21,327 bases of DNA from the IMG/VR virus record IMGVR_UViG_3300048011_000740, positions 1-21,327 of that record; one strand, written 5' to 3'. A program made the position numbers and the translations under genes. The stretch comes from a virus. Positions 8,615 through 21,327 of this stretch are shown piece after piece. The first letter of the stretch is position 1, and each line of letters opens with the position of its first letter. Below the pieces are notes generated by a model that saw nothing but the letters and a program-made list of their open reading frames with translations, was not told the origin of the DNA and ran no database searches.

Positions 8615-8971
8615 TTACCATTGTGGTACTAAATTGTCCATATCGAAATTAACACTAACGCCGCAGCCACAACTGCTCTGTGCGTTCGGATTGTTGATTT
8701 CGAAATTACTTCCTGTGAGACTGCTTACATAATCGACCTCTGTACCAATTAAAAACATTACACTGCTGGCACTGATTGCAAAATTTCCTTGATCACAAGC
8801 AACTATTTCATCGCCTGCTTCTAGATCTTCTACCTGTGCTGTACCCCAGTCGTATTCAAACCCTGCACAGCCGCCGCCTTTGATGTTAAGCGTGATAGCA
8901 TAACAATCATTCTCTTTGCATAGTTTGCCAATTTGATGGTTTGCTGCTGGGGTTAGTGTACAAATACTCAT
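8615..8971 (-). CDS. A-type iron-sulfur cluster carrier (HesB/IscA family), 118 aa
   Basis: A-type carriers hold an Fe-S cluster, or iron, through three cysteines and pass it to target proteins. All three are present: C35 in GGGCAGFEY and the pair C101/C103 in SSCGCGVSV. The length of about 118 aa is normal for the family. The ATG at 8971 follows an AAGGAG site, and a late-type box lies at 8993-9000. The gene is first in the structural block, 11 nt ahead of the giant fibre gene, so it appears to be expressed late with virion parts rather than with metabolic genes. It could supply iron to a virion protein or to host Fe-S enzymes. The bacterial homologue (IscA, ErpA or SufA) cannot be told apart by eye. 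Confidence 0.9.
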   Translation of the reverse strand: MSICTLTPAANHQIGKLCKENDCYAITLNIKGGGCAGFEYDWGTAQVEDLEAGDEIVACDQGNFAISASSVMFLIGTEVDYVSSLTGSNFEINNPNAQSSCGCGVSVNFDMDNLVPQW

Positions 8972-9033: not shown

Positions 9034-9321
9034 ATGTACATTAAAGAATATATGATAGATACTTGGCACATGCGCACAAGCAAACTTGGTAATCAACACA
9101 CCTATAATCGCAAAAAAACAATGGTATTGTTTAGATGCGACAACTGCGATGACGAATTTTCACGCCCACGAGGCAGTATGGATCCCAAACGCATCAGCAA
9201 CAACTACTTTCATGTTTGCGATAAATGCGATGCCAAACGCTTTGCACAAAAGCGTGGAGTTGATAAGAAAAAAGTGTGGTCACTTACAGCCAGTAGTGAT
9301 ATTCCAATTAACAAACTGTGA
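9034..9321 (+). CDS. Small Cys4 (zinc-ribbon-like) protein, 95 aa
   Basis: This is the only plus-strand gene. Two CxxC pairs, C35/C38 (FRCDNCDDEF) and C62/C65 (HVCDKCDAKRF), are spaced as in a treble-clef or zinc-ribbon metal site, with a basic stretch (KRFAQKRGVDKKK) after the second pair that could touch nucleic acid. No HNH or other nuclease residues are evident. The start is uncertain: ATG codons at 9034, 9052 and 9121 are all in frame and none has a convincing ribosome-binding site. The first fits best with the promoter at 8986-9015. Its end overlaps the end of the minus-strand sulfotransferase by 42 nt. Small DNA- or RNA-binding regulator is a guess; function unknown. Confidence 0.65.
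   Translation: MYIKEYMIDTWHMRTSKLGNQHTYNRKKTMVLFRCDNCDDEFSRPRGSMDPKRISNNYFHVCDKCDAKRFAQKRGVDKKKVWSLTASSDIPINKL
9268..9285 (-). terminator. Weak intrinsic terminator at the end of the sulfotransferase operon
   Basis: On the minus strand a 5-bp stem (AAGTG / CACTT) with an ACCA loop runs directly into a T tract and overlaps the TGA stop of the sulfotransferase. The stem is short and AT-rich, so it is only a candidate, but it falls where the accessory block meets the structural block. Confidence 0.3.
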
Positions 9322-9927
9322 ACGGTTGATCAACTTGTAGTCCTTTTTGTAAAACTCTTTGAGTTTTGGATACAGTTTCTCACGGTTTATTTCCAGCCAG
9401 CCGTCCAGAGCCATACGAAACTTGGGCCTGTGTTTGTCTGCGCTGGTGGTGTTTTCTTTTGACACTGATTTAAAAACATTGAAGTCTTGCTGGATATCAT
9501 CCAGTACATCTGGGTGGTAATAGTAATAGTGTATTTTTCCAGTGAACTTTTTTATATTTTTCAATTCAGCAGATTGCAGCCCGGTGTGAAAATCAAATGC
9601 ATACAATGTATCTCTTTTTATATAAGAATTCAGTGCCATCAGCATTTTACTTGGATTGGGATTTCCTAATGTAGTGACAAACGAATGTGGACCGTATGTG
9701 AAATACTCCACTGTTCCACTGATCCATCTATCAATCGGATCTCTCAAAATTACAACAACATCTGCATCCAGTGGAGGTTTAACAGCCACAAAGTCTTCAG
9801 GTAGTTGATTTATTATAGATGTAGAACAATTCTTTGCTATGGTACAAAAATAAAGATTTCTCTCAGGGCTGTATACTGGTAAAAACTCAAGTATTTCGTA
9901 GTTTTCTGATTTGTTTTTCTTGTACAT
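9280..9927 (-). CDS. Sulfotransferase-family protein, 215 aa
   Basis: Sulfotransferases move a sulfuryl group from PAPS to a hydroxyl or amine of sugars, lipids or peptides. Two PAPS-binding signatures are visible: a 5'-phosphosulfate loop near residues 28-38 (CTIAKNCSTSI, with K32) and the 3'-phosphate motif near 58-70 (VVILRDPIDRWIS, with R62, R67 and S70). The C-terminal half is Lys/Tyr-rich and gives no acceptor clue. The ATG at 9927 is preferred because AGAGAG lies upstream; a TTG directly before it at 9930 is also in frame. It overlaps the coiled-coil gene by 41 nt and is the last gene of its operon. It is only weakly similar by eye to the other sulfotransferase two genes upstream, so the two may use different acceptors. 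Confidence 0.75.
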   Translation of the reverse strand: MYKKNKSENYEILEFLPVYSPERNLYFCTIAKNCSTSIINQLPEDFVAVKPPLDADVVVILRDPIDRWISGTVEYFTYGPHSFVTTLGNPNPSKMLMALNSYIKRDTLYAFDFHTGLQSAELKNIKKFTGKIHYYYYHPDVLDDIQQDFNVFKSVSKENTTSADKHRPKFRMALDGWLEINREKLYPKLKEFYKKDYKLINRSQFVNWNITTGCK

Positions 9928-10141
9928 CAAGTCTCTCTTCTAACTGTCGAACTTTTTGTTCAAGTCCTTGAACATACGATCTAGTTGGAACTTCGATACG
10001 TTCTGTGCCATCTTCGCCTAACATGCTGTAATGATCTACGCCTGCACCTTTTAATCCGCCCAGCACTCGGTTGGGGTTCTTTTCTTTTTGCGGCGCTGCC
10101 GGTGTATTACTACGTGCATACATTGATGAAATATAACTCAT
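9887..10141 (-). CDS. Small coiled-coil protein between two sulfotransferases, 84 aa
   Basis: The N-terminal half (residues 1-45) is Gly/Pro/Asn-rich and looks flexible (SNTPAAPQKEKNP). Residues about 55-82 form a clear heptad-type coiled coil (SYVQGLEQKVRQLEERLDVQ). The ATG overlaps the stop of the upstream sulfotransferase (ATGA) and has a strong AAGGAG site. Its own end overlaps the following sulfotransferase by 41 nt. Translation of the three genes is probably coupled. It could be a scaffold or oligomerisation partner, but similar small coiled-coil proteins of unknown role are common in marine T4-like phages. Confidence 0.7.
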   Translation of the reverse strand: MSYISSMYARSNTPAAPQKEKNPNRVLGGLKGAGVDHYSMLGEDGTERIEVPTRSYVQGLEQKVRQLEERLDVQEKQIRKLRNT

Positions 10142-10725
10142 GGTATCTCCTTGTTGTAGTATTTAATACTTTTTTCGATATTGTAGTTGAATAACTGACA
10201 ATAGTTTTTTGTAATCTTAGTGATTAATTCGATGCTTTTTTCATCCAGTTTAGGATACGGTATTTTATCAGGAGTTGTATTTTCTTTTACAGGCAGGTTC
10301 AGCTGTTCCAAACGCTGCACATTGCATCCTTTGATGTAATATTGATCTGGCATCACGCTGCAATGATCACTGAAAAACAGATCACTGCGGTCGTCTCTGT
10401 AGACTTTCTTCAAATGGCTGCTTAGGCTTTTAGGATACCACGGCGCTCTTGGGTTGTACATCAACCGCAAAAATCTATATCCACTCACAAGCCACTGCAC
10501 TGGATCACGCACAATCAATGTTGTGCTGTATTCATCGATGTTTCTATTTGTAAGTTCAAATATTTTATAAATTTTGGCAGCACCCGACAACGGCAAATCG
10601 TCTAAGTGCTGCACTTTGCTAAAGTCAGTCCATTGTGGGTTGTTTGCATACAATGTTCTATAACTGCTGCTACCGCATTTCATTGGCACAATCAGCAATT
10701 GTTTTTCGCTGTCGTTTACCAGCAA
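10138..10725 (-). CDS. Sulfotransferase-family protein, 195 aa
   Basis: The PAPS-binding hallmarks are present: a 5'-phosphosulfate loop near residues 13-25 (VPMKCGSSSYRTL, K16) and the 3'-phosphate motif near 69-82 (TLIVRDPVQWLVSG, with R73, P75 and S81). At 195 aa it is short for the family but retains both sites. The predicted start is a TTG at 10725, immediately after the TAA of the 100-aa gene, with AAGG about 10 nt upstream; no in-frame ATG precedes the loop. A strong sigma70-like promoter at 10772-10800, inside the upstream gene, gives it an independent transcript. The next gene starts within its stop codon. The acceptor (host surface glycan, fibre tyrosine, small molecule) cannot be told. 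Confidence 0.75.
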   Translation of the reverse strand: MLVNDSEKQLLIVPMKCGSSSYRTLYANNPQWTDFSKVQHLDDLPLSGAAKIYKIFELTNRNIDEYSTTLIVRDPVQWLVSGYRFLRLMYNPRAPWYPKSLSSHLKKVYRDDRSDLFFSDHCSVMPDQYYIKGCNVQRLEQLNLPVKENTTPDKIPYPKLDEKSIELITKITKNYCQLFNYNIEKSIKYYNKEIP

Positions 10726-11028
10726 TTATATCTGCCTTGGAGTTTTGCCTGTGATAAGATACATTTTTTTGATAATAGTATTAACTTCTGCTTCTGTCAA
10801 GTAACCTTTGACTGTATCGTCTTCATCTGTGATTCCAGGCATATATGTAAGGTCACCGTGTTTGATTACAGCAATCTCGTAAGGCGCAGTTTCTGTGCTG
10901 TAAGCACCTTGCCCGCTGATGATGCTGAGTTCATATTCATCTCCGAAACTCAACACACACTGATGCTTGCCTAAAAAATCAGCAGTGTTTTCAATCATTT
11001 CAAAACTTTTAAGTTCTAATACAGCCAT
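10726..11028 (-). CDS. Conserved-looking hypothetical protein, 100 aa
   Basis: I do not recognise this protein. It opens with AVLELKSFEMIENTADFL, has a beta-rich middle (ECVLSF-like and YELSIISGQG strands) and ends in a helix with Lys and Ile (LTEAEVNTIIKKMYLITG). There is no signal peptide, membrane segment or metal site. The ATG has an AAGGAG site. It lies 10 nt after the UV endonuclease gene, and its 3' part carries the promoter for the following sulfotransferase. Confidence 0.7.
   Translation of the reverse strand: MAVLELKSFEMIENTADFLGKHQCVLSFGDEYELSIISGQGAYSTETAPYEIAVIKHGDLTYMPGITDEDDTVKGYLTEAEVNTIIKKMYLITGKTPRQI
10772..10800 (-). promoter_or_regulatory. Sigma70-like promoter inside the 100-aa gene, driving the sulfotransferases
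   Basis: On the minus strand, a perfect TTGACA (10800-10795), a 17-bp spacer and TATTAT (10777-10772, five of six consensus bases). The predicted start near 10765 is 40 nt before the TTG start of the first sulfotransferase. Confidence 0.6.
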
Positions 11029-11038
11029 TGTGCTCTCC

Positions 11039-12073
11039 TTATGCTGCTATTGCCTTTGACTCTTCGGTCATGCTGTACAGTTGTCCGCTGGCCAAGTTCT
11101 TCATCTTAGCCTCCACCATAATGTCTGCCCACTGCCAATGCGACAGTGCCCATTCATTACATGCATCGTTCCACATATAATCACTGTGTGCTCTCAACTT
11201 TTGTTTTTTGTATCCACTTTCAAGTAATGTTGCCATGTCTGGTCGTACACTTGGATCAAAAGTCTGTAATACATCTTCACGGCTAGTGCTATAATGCATA
11301 GCAGGCCTAACACTCCGCCAGCTATCAATAACACGTTTAATACGGTCGTCATTTGGTTCAATGTATTCTCCTGTGCGCACCCAATGGTGATGAATATCCA
11401 ACACCAATGCTACGTCTTTTTCTAATTCTAGGCTTGCGTCGAGTCCCCACGAGTTTTCGTCGTTTTCGATAGTGATACAGTTTCGTGCTTCTGTAGACAA
11501 TCTTGGAAGGACTGCTTTGATACCGGCTGGACCTTGTCTACCGGAGATGTGGACGTTACACTTGAAGTCTTGCCACTTCTGACCGTAGCCCATGTACCTG
11601 ATGAGATTCGCATGATATTCAAACTCCTCTATTGATCGTTCAACGATTTCTTCAGTGGTGGATGCGAGAACAACAAATTGTCCGGGATGCATCGAAAGTC
11701 GCACATCGAGGGCTCTTGCCGCTTCACCGGCGGCGCCATAGTGCTTTTCACAGTATGCCACCACGTCAGGACGACTCCAAAAATACTGCCAATCAGGATG
11801 GGTAGCACAAGGAAGCTGATTGCTACCAAGTCGAACCATCCGAAGTTCAGGTGGAAGAGTTCCCACATATTCAATTAACCTTTTTGCTGCAGAAGCGTTA
11901 TGCTCCATAATTTCCCAAAGACGCTGTTCTGCATCTTCACGTGTTTGTCTATTTAACCATGCTACTGTTGTGCTACGCTCAGTGAGAGGACGTTGCAGTT
12001 CTTCCAACAGTTTCTTGGGTTGCGATTGATTGTAGTGCAGATACTTGCAGGCGAAGCCGATGCGTTTTGTCAT
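11039..12073 (-). CDS. uvsE: UV-damage endonuclease (UvsE/UvdE family), 344 aa
   Basis: UvdE enzymes nick DNA 5' of UV photoproducts and some other lesions, starting an alternative excision repair path. The TIM-barrel metal site is complete by eye: H129 in SMHPGQF, H175 in NVHISGR, E203 in TIENDE, D226 and H228-H230 in LDIHHHW, H260 in HYSTSRE, and H296 in RAHSDYMW. The N-terminus MTKRIGFACKYL fits the family start, and 344 aa is a full length. The ATG overlaps the stop of the preceding 57-aa gene (ATGA), so the two are coupled and share the promoter at 12250-12278. A repair enzyme of this kind suits a phage exposed to sunlight at the sea surface. Confidence 0.93.
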   Translation of the reverse strand: MTKRIGFACKYLHYNQSQPKKLLEELQRPLTERSTTVAWLNRQTREDAEQRLWEIMEHNASAAKRLIEYVGTLPPELRMVRLGSNQLPCATHPDWQYFWSRPDVVAYCEKHYGAAGEAARALDVRLSMHPGQFVVLASTTEEIVERSIEEFEYHANLIRYMGYGQKWQDFKCNVHISGRQGPAGIKAVLPRLSTEARNCITIENDENSWGLDASLELEKDVALVLDIHHHWVRTGEYIEPNDDRIKRVIDSWRSVRPAMHYSTSREDVLQTFDPSVRPDMATLLESGYKKQKLRAHSDYMWNDACNEWALSHWQWADIMVEAKMKNLASGQLYSMTEESKAIAA

Positions 12074-18882: not shown

Positions 18883-19418
18883 TATCGTACTTTCAATTCT
18901 TCAATGTTAACAGGAGTGTAGTTGATTTGCTCTACGCATACACATCTGTGAAACTCAGTTGGGCTTGGATTCTGGTGAATGTGTCCGTGTACGTTTGTCA
19001 TACTGCCTTCACCAAATCTGTGACTCTCACCTAATGTACTGTTGTGTACAGGAACGTGAGTCAACAACAATCCAAACTCAGGGAACATTCTCCACAAGTC
19101 AATCTTGCCCCACCAACCGCCAGCAGCATGAAACTTGATGTTGTCGTGGTTACCGACGATCAAACGCTTCTGTCCGTTCAATCGAGGCATGTTAGTGTCC
19201 ATCCACTCTTGCTTGCGATCACCAAACAACACATCGCCCAAGTGATAAACTTTGTCGCCTGGCTTGACCACACTGTTCCACTGCTGAATCATGTGTTCAT
19301 TCATAGCTTCAACGTCTGCAAACTGACCTCTGCAAGGCTTGCCTACCTTGTCAGTAAATTGTAAGATGTTAGCGTGATCAAAGTGTGTATCACTGATTAC
19401 CCAAATATTTCTCGCCAT
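18882..19418 (-). CDS. Calcineurin-like metallophosphoesterase, 178 aa
   Basis: A two-metal phosphoesterase. All five family motifs are visible: D10-x-H12 (ISDTHFDH), GD at 61-62 (HLGDVLFGD), GNHD at 89-92, H121 (LLTHVPVH) and G145-H-x-H148 (VHGHIHQ). The compact size fits the small single-domain subfamily found in many T4-like phages and in bacterial YfcE-like groups. The substrate is unknown; nucleic-acid ends, cyclic nucleotides or small phosphodiesters are all possible. The gene ends one base into the ligase start, so the two are translationally coupled, which favours a nucleic-acid role. Its first 29 nt overlap the end of the radical SAM gene. Confidence 0.88.
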   Translation of the reverse strand: MARNIWVISDTHFDHANILQFTDKVGKPCRGQFADVEAMNEHMIQQWNSVVKPGDKVYHLGDVLFGDRKQEWMDTNMPRLNGQKRLIVGNHDNIKFHAAGGWWGKIDLWRMFPEFGLLLTHVPVHNSTLGESHRFGEGSMTNVHGHIHQNPSPTEFHRCVCVEQINYTPVNIEELKVR

Positions 19419-20601
19419 TTATCAACTCCGCAATTACAGGACTTACACTGTGTAAATCTAAGTTTTTTCTACTATCAATACTCAGTATAACATATCTGCG
19501 AAGATTGTCAAGATCTTTTTGAGAGTTGATTTTCCAATCTGTATTTTTTGGAGATGCGTAATATTGCGTGTTCATATATTTGACAACTTGCTTATCTATA
19601 TCAGTGTTGCCCATATGAGAAATTAACAAGTCTTTTTGCGATTTGCTCAAAATTCCTAATTCGTAATACACAGGATGTCTTAAAAAATTAACTTCCACAT
19701 GCTTTAATGGAAATCCTATATCATTGCACCATTGTGTAAATTCTGTTCCACTCAAACAATTTAGCAAACTAACAGTGTATGTGATTCGCAAATCAATCCA
19801 TGTGTTTTGCATAGCTTGTAAGAAATTGCTTTCAACTTTTTTCCAAGATGTAGGAGGCCTCTGATATTCAAAACGGTTGCCTATATCATCTATGCTGTAC
19901 ATCAGTCGTACTGCTTTGAAGCACTTGAATACTTTTAGCATCCTATCTGATATACGCACAGTGCCGTTGGTGTGTATCTTTAACCATATGTTTCTGGCTA
20001 CATCAATATCTATCAAGTGTTGCAACAAGTCGATTGTATTGGGCAACAACAACGTCTCGCCGCCAGACAGATACAGTGCTTCCAAATCCTTGGATATATC
20101 TTTGATGTGTTGCCAATTAACACTGTGATCAGTCCAATCTTTGCCATTTTGTACATTGATCACTTGCCCAAATATATCTTTTTCGTCTTCGATCCAATTG
20201 TTGCTGTATTCGCTGTTGCAAATTTTGCACTGTAAATTGCATTTAATACCCAGCTTAACATCCAGTAGTATGGGATTATTTGCGTCTGTGCTCACACAGT
20301 TTTTCAAATGCTTTCCGTGTGCATCAAGTTCACGCTGTCTACGACTCAGCAGTCCTTGTTGTTCTTGTTGCCAACATTTGCTGCATTCGGGCAATTGCTT
20401 TCCGTCCAAGAACGCTTGTCGTATGCTTTTGATGTCGTTGCTGTGCCACACTGTGTTGAGATCAGTACTGGGATCATTTAAATCAAACTTGTTGCCATTG
20501 TCATCAACCAGGTCTCTATTGAACTCTGCACATGGCCTTGTGAACCCTGTGGTGCACACTTCGATTTGTGTCCAAGGTACCATGCACTTAGGAGATGTCA
20601 T
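19390..20601 (-). CDS. Twitch-type radical SAM protein, 403 aa
   Basis: Radical SAM enzymes split S-adenosylmethionine at a 4Fe-4S cluster to start radical chemistry. The cluster motif is C121-x3-C125-x2-C128 (CNLQCKICN), and the SAM-binding GGE is at 180-182 (LYLSGGETLLL). The 80 residues before it hold C6, C16, C24, C73 and C76 (PWTQIEVCTTGFTRPC, PECSKCW), which look like an N-terminal SPASM/twitch auxiliary cluster site. Relatives act on peptides or attach small groups; the substrate here is unknown. The start overlaps the SGNH-like gene by 14 nt and the end overlaps the phosphoesterase by 29 nt. The 3' part also carries a promoter for the downstream operon. Confidence 0.88.
   Translation of the reverse strand: MTSPKCMVPWTQIEVCTTGFTRPCAEFNRDLVDDNGNKFDLNDPSTDLNTVWHSNDIKSIRQAFLDGKQLPECSKCWQQEQQGLLSRRQRELDAHGKHLKNCVSTDANNPILLDVKLGIKCNLQCKICNSEYSNNWIEDEKDIFGQVINVQNGKDWTDHSVNWQHIKDISKDLEALYLSGGETLLLPNTIDLLQHLIDIDVARNIWLKIHTNGTVRISDRMLKVFKCFKAVRLMYSIDDIGNRFEYQRPPTSWKKVESNFLQAMQNTWIDLRITYTVSLLNCLSGTEFTQWCNDIGFPLKHVEVNFLRHPVYYELGILSKSQKDLLISHMGNTDIDKQVVKYMNTQYYASPKNTDWKINSQKDLDNLRRYVILSIDSRKNLDLHSVSPVIAELINGEKYLGNQ
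19443..19455. repeat. Short perfect palindrome in the ligase-operon leader
   Basis: TTACAC, one base, GTGTAA. It lies about 25 nt downstream of the predicted start and may be an operator-like site, but at this size chance is possible. Confidence 0.3.
19484..19511 (-). promoter_or_regulatory. Sigma70-like promoter inside the radical SAM gene, driving the ligase operon
   Basis: On the minus strand, a perfect TTGACA (19511-19506), a 16-bp spacer and TATACT (19489-19484), with a TGT extended -10 just before it. The predicted start near 19477 gives a leader of about 59 nt before the phosphoesterase ATG, which contains a GGAG site. Confidence 0.65.
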
Positions 20602-21283
20602 AGTTCTTCTTTATCCATGGAACAATTACTTGCTTGGCGAATTCATTGTGTTGTAGCTCTCCTGGATGATCGTCGCCGGGCACAGGAAAGTCATCGGGGT
20701 AATATTTTTTACACCATTCAGCCATGCCTTGCACATCTAAAAACTTGTCCCAAGCAACAAGTTTTTTCAATGGGTGTATGTATTTTGAATTTGTACCAGT
20801 TTCGTCAAGTGCACTTGCAGTATAAGTTGTAAAAAAATATTTTATGTTGTTTTTCTCAAGGAACCATTGCAATCTCAACATGTGTTCATATGTTTCCATC
20901 AATGCTTGTGTGTCATTGAAGTACCATTGATACCATTGCTTTGCAAACTTGTCATTGAATCCAGGGTTGGACAGCAGCCAGTCTTCATCATTCCATCTAA
21001 AAGGACTGGTTTCGCTTTGACATCCTTTGTGCTTTTTCAAAGCATCTTCGCCGTTGGACATGTGACTCTTGCGAGGATAGCCGCTCCACATCACACCTAC
21101 CAGTACATCTTGGTAGCTTTTGAGCTCCAGCAGTTTGTTCAACACACGCCTACTGATCAAGTCGTTGCCTGCGCTGCCAATCCCTGTTTGATAGTGAGCG
21201 ACATTGAGTTGTTTTTCCAGTTTTACAGGCCAACAGAAATTGTCTGCACTGAAGCTACAACCTCCAGTAATCAATAGTTTCAT
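20588..21283 (-). CDS. SGNH/GDSL-like protein, 231 aa
   Basis: The N-terminus MKLLITGGCSFSADNFCWPV resembles the nucleophile block of SGNH hydrolases, with S10 the candidate nucleophile. GIGSAGND (34-41) could supply the Gly/Asn of blocks II-III, and DDHPGELQHNEFA (204-216) looks like the final Asp-His block. Such proteins remove or add acyl groups on sugars; phage members are poorly studied. The ATG at 21283 is chosen because it overlaps the stop of the upstream gene (ATGA) and has GGGAGAG ahead; a longer frame from 21322 would run over that gene. The family call is moderate. Its neighbour, the radical SAM protein, begins inside its last codons. Confidence 0.65.
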   Translation of the reverse strand: MKLLITGGCSFSADNFCWPVKLEKQLNVAHYQTGIGSAGNDLISRRVLNKLLELKSYQDVLVGVMWSGYPRKSHMSNGEDALKKHKGCQSETSPFRWNDEDWLLSNPGFNDKFAKQWYQWYFNDTQALMETYEHMLRLQWFLEKNNIKYFFTTYTASALDETGTNSKYIHPLKKLVAWDKFLDVQGMAEWCKKYYPDDFPVPGDDHPGELQHNEFAKQVIVPWIKKNYDIS

Positions 21284-21327
21284 TTGGTGTCTGCTCTCCC
21301 CTTGGCACCACAATGCGGACAATGAAA
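21280..21327 (-). CDS. C-terminal end of a zinc-ribbon-like protein (partial)
   Basis: The last 15 codons before the TGA read FHCPHCGAKGRADTK. The CPHCGAK knuckle is typical of a zinc ribbon. The stop overlaps the ATG of the SGNH-like gene by 4 nt (ATGA), which supports the frame. The rest lies outside the window. Confidence 0.5.
   Translation of the reverse strand, partial: FHCPHCGAKGRADTK

Follow-up and report, generated by a model that had tools for sequence, protein, structure and literature searches.

We propose that ST2 and ST1, two small genes of a virus record of 21,327 bases (the window, that is, the whole stretch of DNA analysed), encode PAPS-dependent accessory sulfotransferases held in two slots beside a core gene, CC, and that these enzymes transfer sulfate from host PAPS to glycans, a reading that we consider fairly probable. 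Computation shows that the proteins have this fold and keep their cofactor-site residues intact, and that their genes occupy slots, are confined to one sub-clade and diverge fast, while host PAPS and the glycan acceptor are what we infer.

Two diverged sulfotransferase-like proteins

The minus strand of the window carries, from upstream to downstream, ClpP, p139, p137, QueD, a glycosyltransferase, UvsE, up100, ST2, CC, ST1, HesB and a giant fibre gene. ST2 (10138-10725, minus strand, 195 aa, TTG start) lies between UvsE and CC, a place termed slot A, and ST1 (9280-9930, minus strand, 216 aa) in slot B, downstream of CC (9887-10141, minus strand, 84 aa). The ST2 stop and the CC start share ATGA, and the CC 3' end overlaps the ST1 5' end (start at TTG 9930 or, likelier, at ATG 9927), confirming the overlapping ends that the preliminary description of this DNA had reported for the three reading frames. 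The upstream core gene encodes the UV-damage endonuclease UvsE/UvdE (11039-12073, minus strand; PF03851, E 1.5e-39), with the glycosyltransferase gene (phrog_1962) close by, just past UvsE; the downstream core gene encodes a HesB/IscA-type Fe-S protein (8615-8971, minus strand; PF01521, E 2.5e-13), and the order of both is conserved. The fibre-like gene, of 2253 aa, lies two genes downstream of the trio. Converging on ST1 from the plus strand is a gene (9034-9321) for a 95-aa protein with two C-x2-C pairs; it is conserved, is present in relatives and overlaps the ST1 3' end by 42 nt at its own 3' end. The accessory 100-aa gene up100 (10726-11028, minus strand; phrog_4074) has homologues, recognised by eye, at positions in related phages that are unrelated to that in the window (L140:16181-16519 and L086:7187-7486), and looks like a mobile accessory gene. 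Farther away, a radical SAM/SPASM protein adjoins a DUF6071 protein (PF19547, E 1.8e-6; 19390-20601 and 20588-21322); by eye, both recur in related contigs (L140), where they are separated by a gene resembling B12-type radical SAM genes.

Consistently with the preliminary description, both proteins keep the PAPS-binding motifs, a 5'-phosphosulfate loop with Lys and Ser/Thr (K16-C-G-S-S-S in ST2, K33-N-C-S-T-S in ST1) and a 3'-phosphate Arg-x7-Ser motif (R73...S81 in ST2, R63...S71 in ST1), and they are distinct from each other, falling into separate sub-families. Loss of PAPS-binding residues in relatives had been named as the sign against this assignment, and we saw no such loss: K33, S36, R63, D64, P65, R68, W69, G72, D113, H115, Q119 and D197 are invariant in 44 ST1-family members, with S71 kept in at least 90% of ST1 relatives, and K16, R73, S81 and H121 are invariant in ten ST2/ST3 proteins. 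The same 5' and 3' motifs characterise Sulfotransfer_2 (PF03567) and phrog_3347 ('Galactose-3-O-sulfotransferase'), to which the HMM matches were weak: ST2 reached E 0.0036 and 17.9 bits against PF03567, below the curated cut-off of 22 bits, and ST1 matched no Pfam family and phrog_3347 at E 4.6e-4. Neither window protein thus belongs to PF03567 by its curated cut-off, and both are shorter (195-216 aa) than its 252-position model. Among relatives, an L029-type ST2 orthologue clears the cut-off with 24.5 bits, and 16 of the 44 ST1 relatives match Sulfotransfer_2 (best E 6.4e-9), so that the case for sulfotransferases, weak when judged from single-sequence HMMs alone, is strong once relatives are included. 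NCBIfam offered no name for the proteins, and the PADLOC defence-system models gave no match to ST1, CC, ST2 or ST3, the last a third paralogue found in some relatives. ST1 and ST2 are predicted to be diverged PAPS-type sulfotransferases and are probably working enzymes.

The AlphaFold2 models of both proteins were confident (pLDDT 86.9 for ST1, 88.6 for ST2), and in VIA-align their top structures were all sulfotransferases, at places 1-18 of the ranking for ST1 and in 50 of 50 among the matches listed for ST2. The best structure was 4ndz, a heparan sulfate 2-O-sulfotransferase, for ST1 (Z 8.3, rmsd 3.5, 163 residues) and 1t8t, a heparan sulfate 3-O-sulfotransferase, for ST2 (Z 8.1, rmsd 3.8, 161 residues). 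A Z of about 8 would be moderate on its own, and we accept the sulfotransferase fold because the lists are uniform and the motifs are present. Foldseek alone gave no significant E-value for either model (0.07-0.18), and a sequence search of solved structures returned weak matches only. The carbohydrate-acting heparan sulfate 2-O-, 3-O- and N-sulfotransferases that provided the best structures (4ndz, 1t8t, 1nst) have the PAP-binding core in common with ST1 and ST2 and match over most of both models; the window proteins, however, are just 10-14% identical to them and roughly 60-70 residues shorter than the 3-O- and N-sulfotransferase domains, and their acceptor is not expected to be heparan sulfate.

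The acceptor of the sulfate

Since polysaccharides are the substrates of the best-matching structures and a gene for a glycosyltransferase lies nearby, we favour a glycan acceptor, bearing in mind that a heparan-sulfate-like fold in a model would not amount to proof of a sugar substrate. PAPS would be supplied by the host, as suggested by the sulfotransferase-bearing contigs, in which neither APS kinase nor a PAP (Inositol_P-type) phosphatase was found; these contigs are fragments, so this is no proof. Sulfate would be moved from PAPS to glycan hydroxyls, most likely those of host envelope polysaccharide or LPS or of a virion glycan, and sulfation might alter a surface used for recognition, the best-suited allele differing from host to host. 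More tentatively, this large-phage lineage may carry a set of four to five small, rapidly diversifying sulfotransferases, exchanged by way of slots next to core genes, that rewrite how glycans of the host or the virion are sulfated; if true, they would be a sulfate-based counterpart of the phage O-antigen-modifying enzymes.

The main rival to a glycan is a protein acceptor, namely tyrosine or hydroxylated residues of a phage fibre or of a phage-made peptide, modified together with radical-SAM and possible 2OG-oxygenase enzymes. The fibre-like gene downstream of the trio and the radical SAM/SPASM protein encoded in the window are consistent with it, as are two further sulfotransferase-like genes of relatives. 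One of them (L139:16041-16697; Sulfotransfer_2 E 0.0068) has neighbours that by eye are PAAR-like and fibre-like, which may hint that the acceptor is part of the virion, and the other (L140:12517-13146) overlaps a possible 2OG-oxygenase gene. We nevertheless consider a protein acceptor unlikely: ST1 resembles protein tyrosine sulfotransferase less (Z 4.7) than the carbohydrate enzymes (Z 7-8), and relatives that have no sulfotransferase (L047, L044) likewise carry the fibre gene after HesB.

Still less probable is that the acceptor is phage DNA or a nucleotide and that the enzymes work with QueD and the glycosyltransferase in a pathway of base hypermodification. The genes of both lie just upstream, and according to a passage of PMC10829341 that cites Iyer et al. 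2013, sulfotransferase-based nucleotide modification systems have been described in phages. QueD and the glycosyltransferase are, however, also core genes where sulfotransferases are absent, the best folds are carbohydrate enzymes, and such an acceptor becomes less likely because a search of 14 related contigs found no gene of TGT/DpdA type and nothing that matched QueC above cut-off.

Slots, turnover and the core gene CC

A profile search of viral contigs with CC recovered 45 further loci, 22 of them distinct by CC sequence, and in almost every one the genes run from QueD through the glycosyltransferase, UvsE, slot A, CC and slot B to HesB (the exceptions being L057, without a recognised UvsE, and three contigs, L058-L060, in a different context). 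Across loci, slot A is empty or holds ST2, ST2 plus ST3, or unrelated genes, and slot B is empty or holds ST1 or unrelated genes. Sulfotransferases flank CC on both sides in four of the 22 distinct loci (L023, L028, L029-type and L034-type), a fifth (L019) has one upstream of CC only, and in the other 17 neither slot has a sulfotransferase. Even the nearest relative of the window in the core tree, L030, lacks sulfotransferases in both slots, and its slot B is taken by another gene, of 230 aa. ST1 and ST2 are accessory and exchangeable, and CC lies between the two insertion slots that they fill. By eye, the unrelated genes that take their place in close relatives (L030:3010-3702, L045:1407-2120 and L045:469-1029) are SGNH-hydrolase-like in slot B and 2OG-oxygenase-like in slot A; none matched Pfam, and the two that were tested against PHROG had no match there.

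Every CC locus that bears sulfotransferases falls in one sub-clade, within which ST1 and ST2 tend to travel together, often with ST3. The ST1 copies of the lineage form one clade (support 0.996) and the ST2 copies another (0.999), and for this reason an ancestral acquisition followed by loss or replacement, in other words inheritance with turnover, seems likely. To judge from identities between L029 and L034 (86-89% for UvsE, HesB and QueD, against 62% for ST2, 33% for ST1 and 27% for ST3), the sulfotransferases diverge much faster than their neighbours. Between the close pair L023 and L028, dN/dS was about 0.40 for ST3, 0.24 for CC and 0.01-0.14 for ST1, ST2 and the surrounding enzymes; the ST3 differences lie mostly outside the PAPS loop, a pattern of relaxed or diversifying change that is not proof of positive selection. 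The longer sulfotransferase-bearing contigs hold several sulfotransferase genes at two to three sites (five in 113 kb, four in 91 kb and four in 76 kb, all partial genomes), whereas eight sulfotransferase-free relatives of about 1.4 Mb in total yielded none at the thresholds used; all related contigs are fragments. Sulfotransferase-bearing relatives also encode a 261-aa protein, a fatty-acid desaturase by eye (HRCFSH...HNNHH), which adjoins a radical SAM-like gene (L137:5801-6586, L140:8088-8873).

The 84-aa CC protein has a conserved sequence, KNPNRVLGGLKG...DHYSMLGEDG...PTRSYVQGLEQK, and its C-terminus matches designed coiled coils, which bears out the preliminary description of a small coiled-coil protein between the sulfotransferases. 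The further proposal, that ST2, CC and ST1 make up a single module dedicated to sulfation, with its own promoter and with CC as scaffold, draws on the order ST2-(ST3)-CC-ST1, which four distinct relatives share with the window, in part with overlapping ends, and on the 11/12 promoter match discussed below. It is largely refuted by the distribution of CC, and we hold it to be very improbable: rare co-occurrence of the three genes had been named as the finding that would undo it, and CC is well conserved in the 17 distinct relatives without an adjoining sulfotransferase, among them contigs of 251 kb and 382 kb in which none was found at all. The coupling is likewise unspecific, in that CC is joined to whichever gene precedes it, be it ST2, ST3 or, in L053-L055, UvsE. 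Because 17 of the 22 distinct loci have no sulfotransferase beside it, CC belongs to the core genes of this lineage of uncultured large phages and is not a scaffold tied to sulfotransferases, and it is no part of the sulfation chemistry. Overlap and adjacency of genes in one genome can thus mimic a functional module that falls apart once genomes are compared.

An N-terminal motif of CC, KNPNR-V-GGL, is conserved in the window (9887-10141) and in L018-L062, in a lineage with contigs of up to 382 kb, and some members have a membrane-like protein of about 64 aa after CC. Searches with CC against isolate phages and genome contigs gave no convincing match, and the L005 CC matched nothing by tblastn against 50,697 phage records; weak similarity of CC to parts of head-scaffolding proteins of Synechococcus phages in the same records (383 aa, E 0.02-0.06, tblastn) was judged a coiled-coil coincidence.

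The promoter reported for the trio, TTGACA-N17-TATTAT at 10800-10772 on the minus strand, does match at 11 of 12 positions, and it may be a real promoter, since the gene strand has three matches of this kind and Markov shuffles led us to expect 0.28. That it serves only the trio did not hold: the site lies inside the accessory up100, at a distance of 75 nt before the ST2 start, the strand goes on past the trio with HesB and the giant fibre gene, and the site is not conserved, no match above 9/12 being present upstream of ST2 in the sulfotransferase-bearing relatives. Some relatives have promoter-like sites in the UvsE 3' end; these occupy a similar place in its frame, and we regarded them as coincidences of coding sequence. 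The weak terminator that had been placed after ST1 (AAGTG-ACCA-CACTT followed by a T-run, 9272-9285, minus strand) is a 5-bp hairpin with two G-C pairs that is no better than shuffles (-2.8 kcal/mol, z -1.1; z -0.4 in context); in context it is displaced by another fold, and it sits in the conserved convergent gene that overlaps the ST1 3' end. The trio has neither a conserved promoter of its own nor a terminator, and a promoter-driven cassette is not established.

Least credible of all is that ST1 and ST2 bind PAPS or PAP without catalysis, acting, say, as a sponge or a regulator, which would suit short proteins with no acceptor known and is hard to reconcile with D113, H115 and Q119, outside the cofactor site, being invariant across 44 diverse ST1 relatives, as an active site would be, and H121 across the ten ST2/ST3 relatives.

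Sulfotransferases in other phages

Sulfotransferases have been described in marine phages, namely OM43 phages and Synechococcus phage S-SRM01, with their function called unclear (PMC10580990), and phage sulfotransferases are also listed in several virome surveys. Those of the OM43 phages and S-SRM01 are likewise accessory genes; they belong, however, to Sulfotransfer_3 (PF13469), whereas the lineage of the window has several divergent copies in defined slots. Phage sulfotransferases as such are already known, and the newer part, of moderate interest, would be the multi-copy set restricted to one sub-clade. Many marine viromes list phage sulfotransferases without a known role (PMC10580990), and multi-copy, fast-diverging, slot-borne genes with close sulfotransferase-free relatives offer matched pairs for finding the target of sulfation.

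By tblastn against the 50,697 phage records, ST1, ST2, the L034 ST1 and the L102 relative found no match, and ST1 and ST2 of the window are new members that have diverged strongly and match nothing in isolate phages. Scans of viral contigs with the single sequences of ST1 and CC likewise found nothing, their relatives there being detected only with alignments, and no cellular relative of either was confirmed in 84,980 genomes.

Outside the lineage, the ST1 relatives adjoin genes that by eye resemble T4-type replication genes. Those in L082:5399-6705, L089:5962-6582, L134:5785-6456 and L079:5956-6636, sometimes tandem pairs, lie between a sliding-clamp-like 240-aa gene and a gene of about 520 aa, whose L082 copy matched neither Pfam nor PHROG and which carries a GDSGGFQ motif reminiscent of TGT/DpdA, a putative resemblance.
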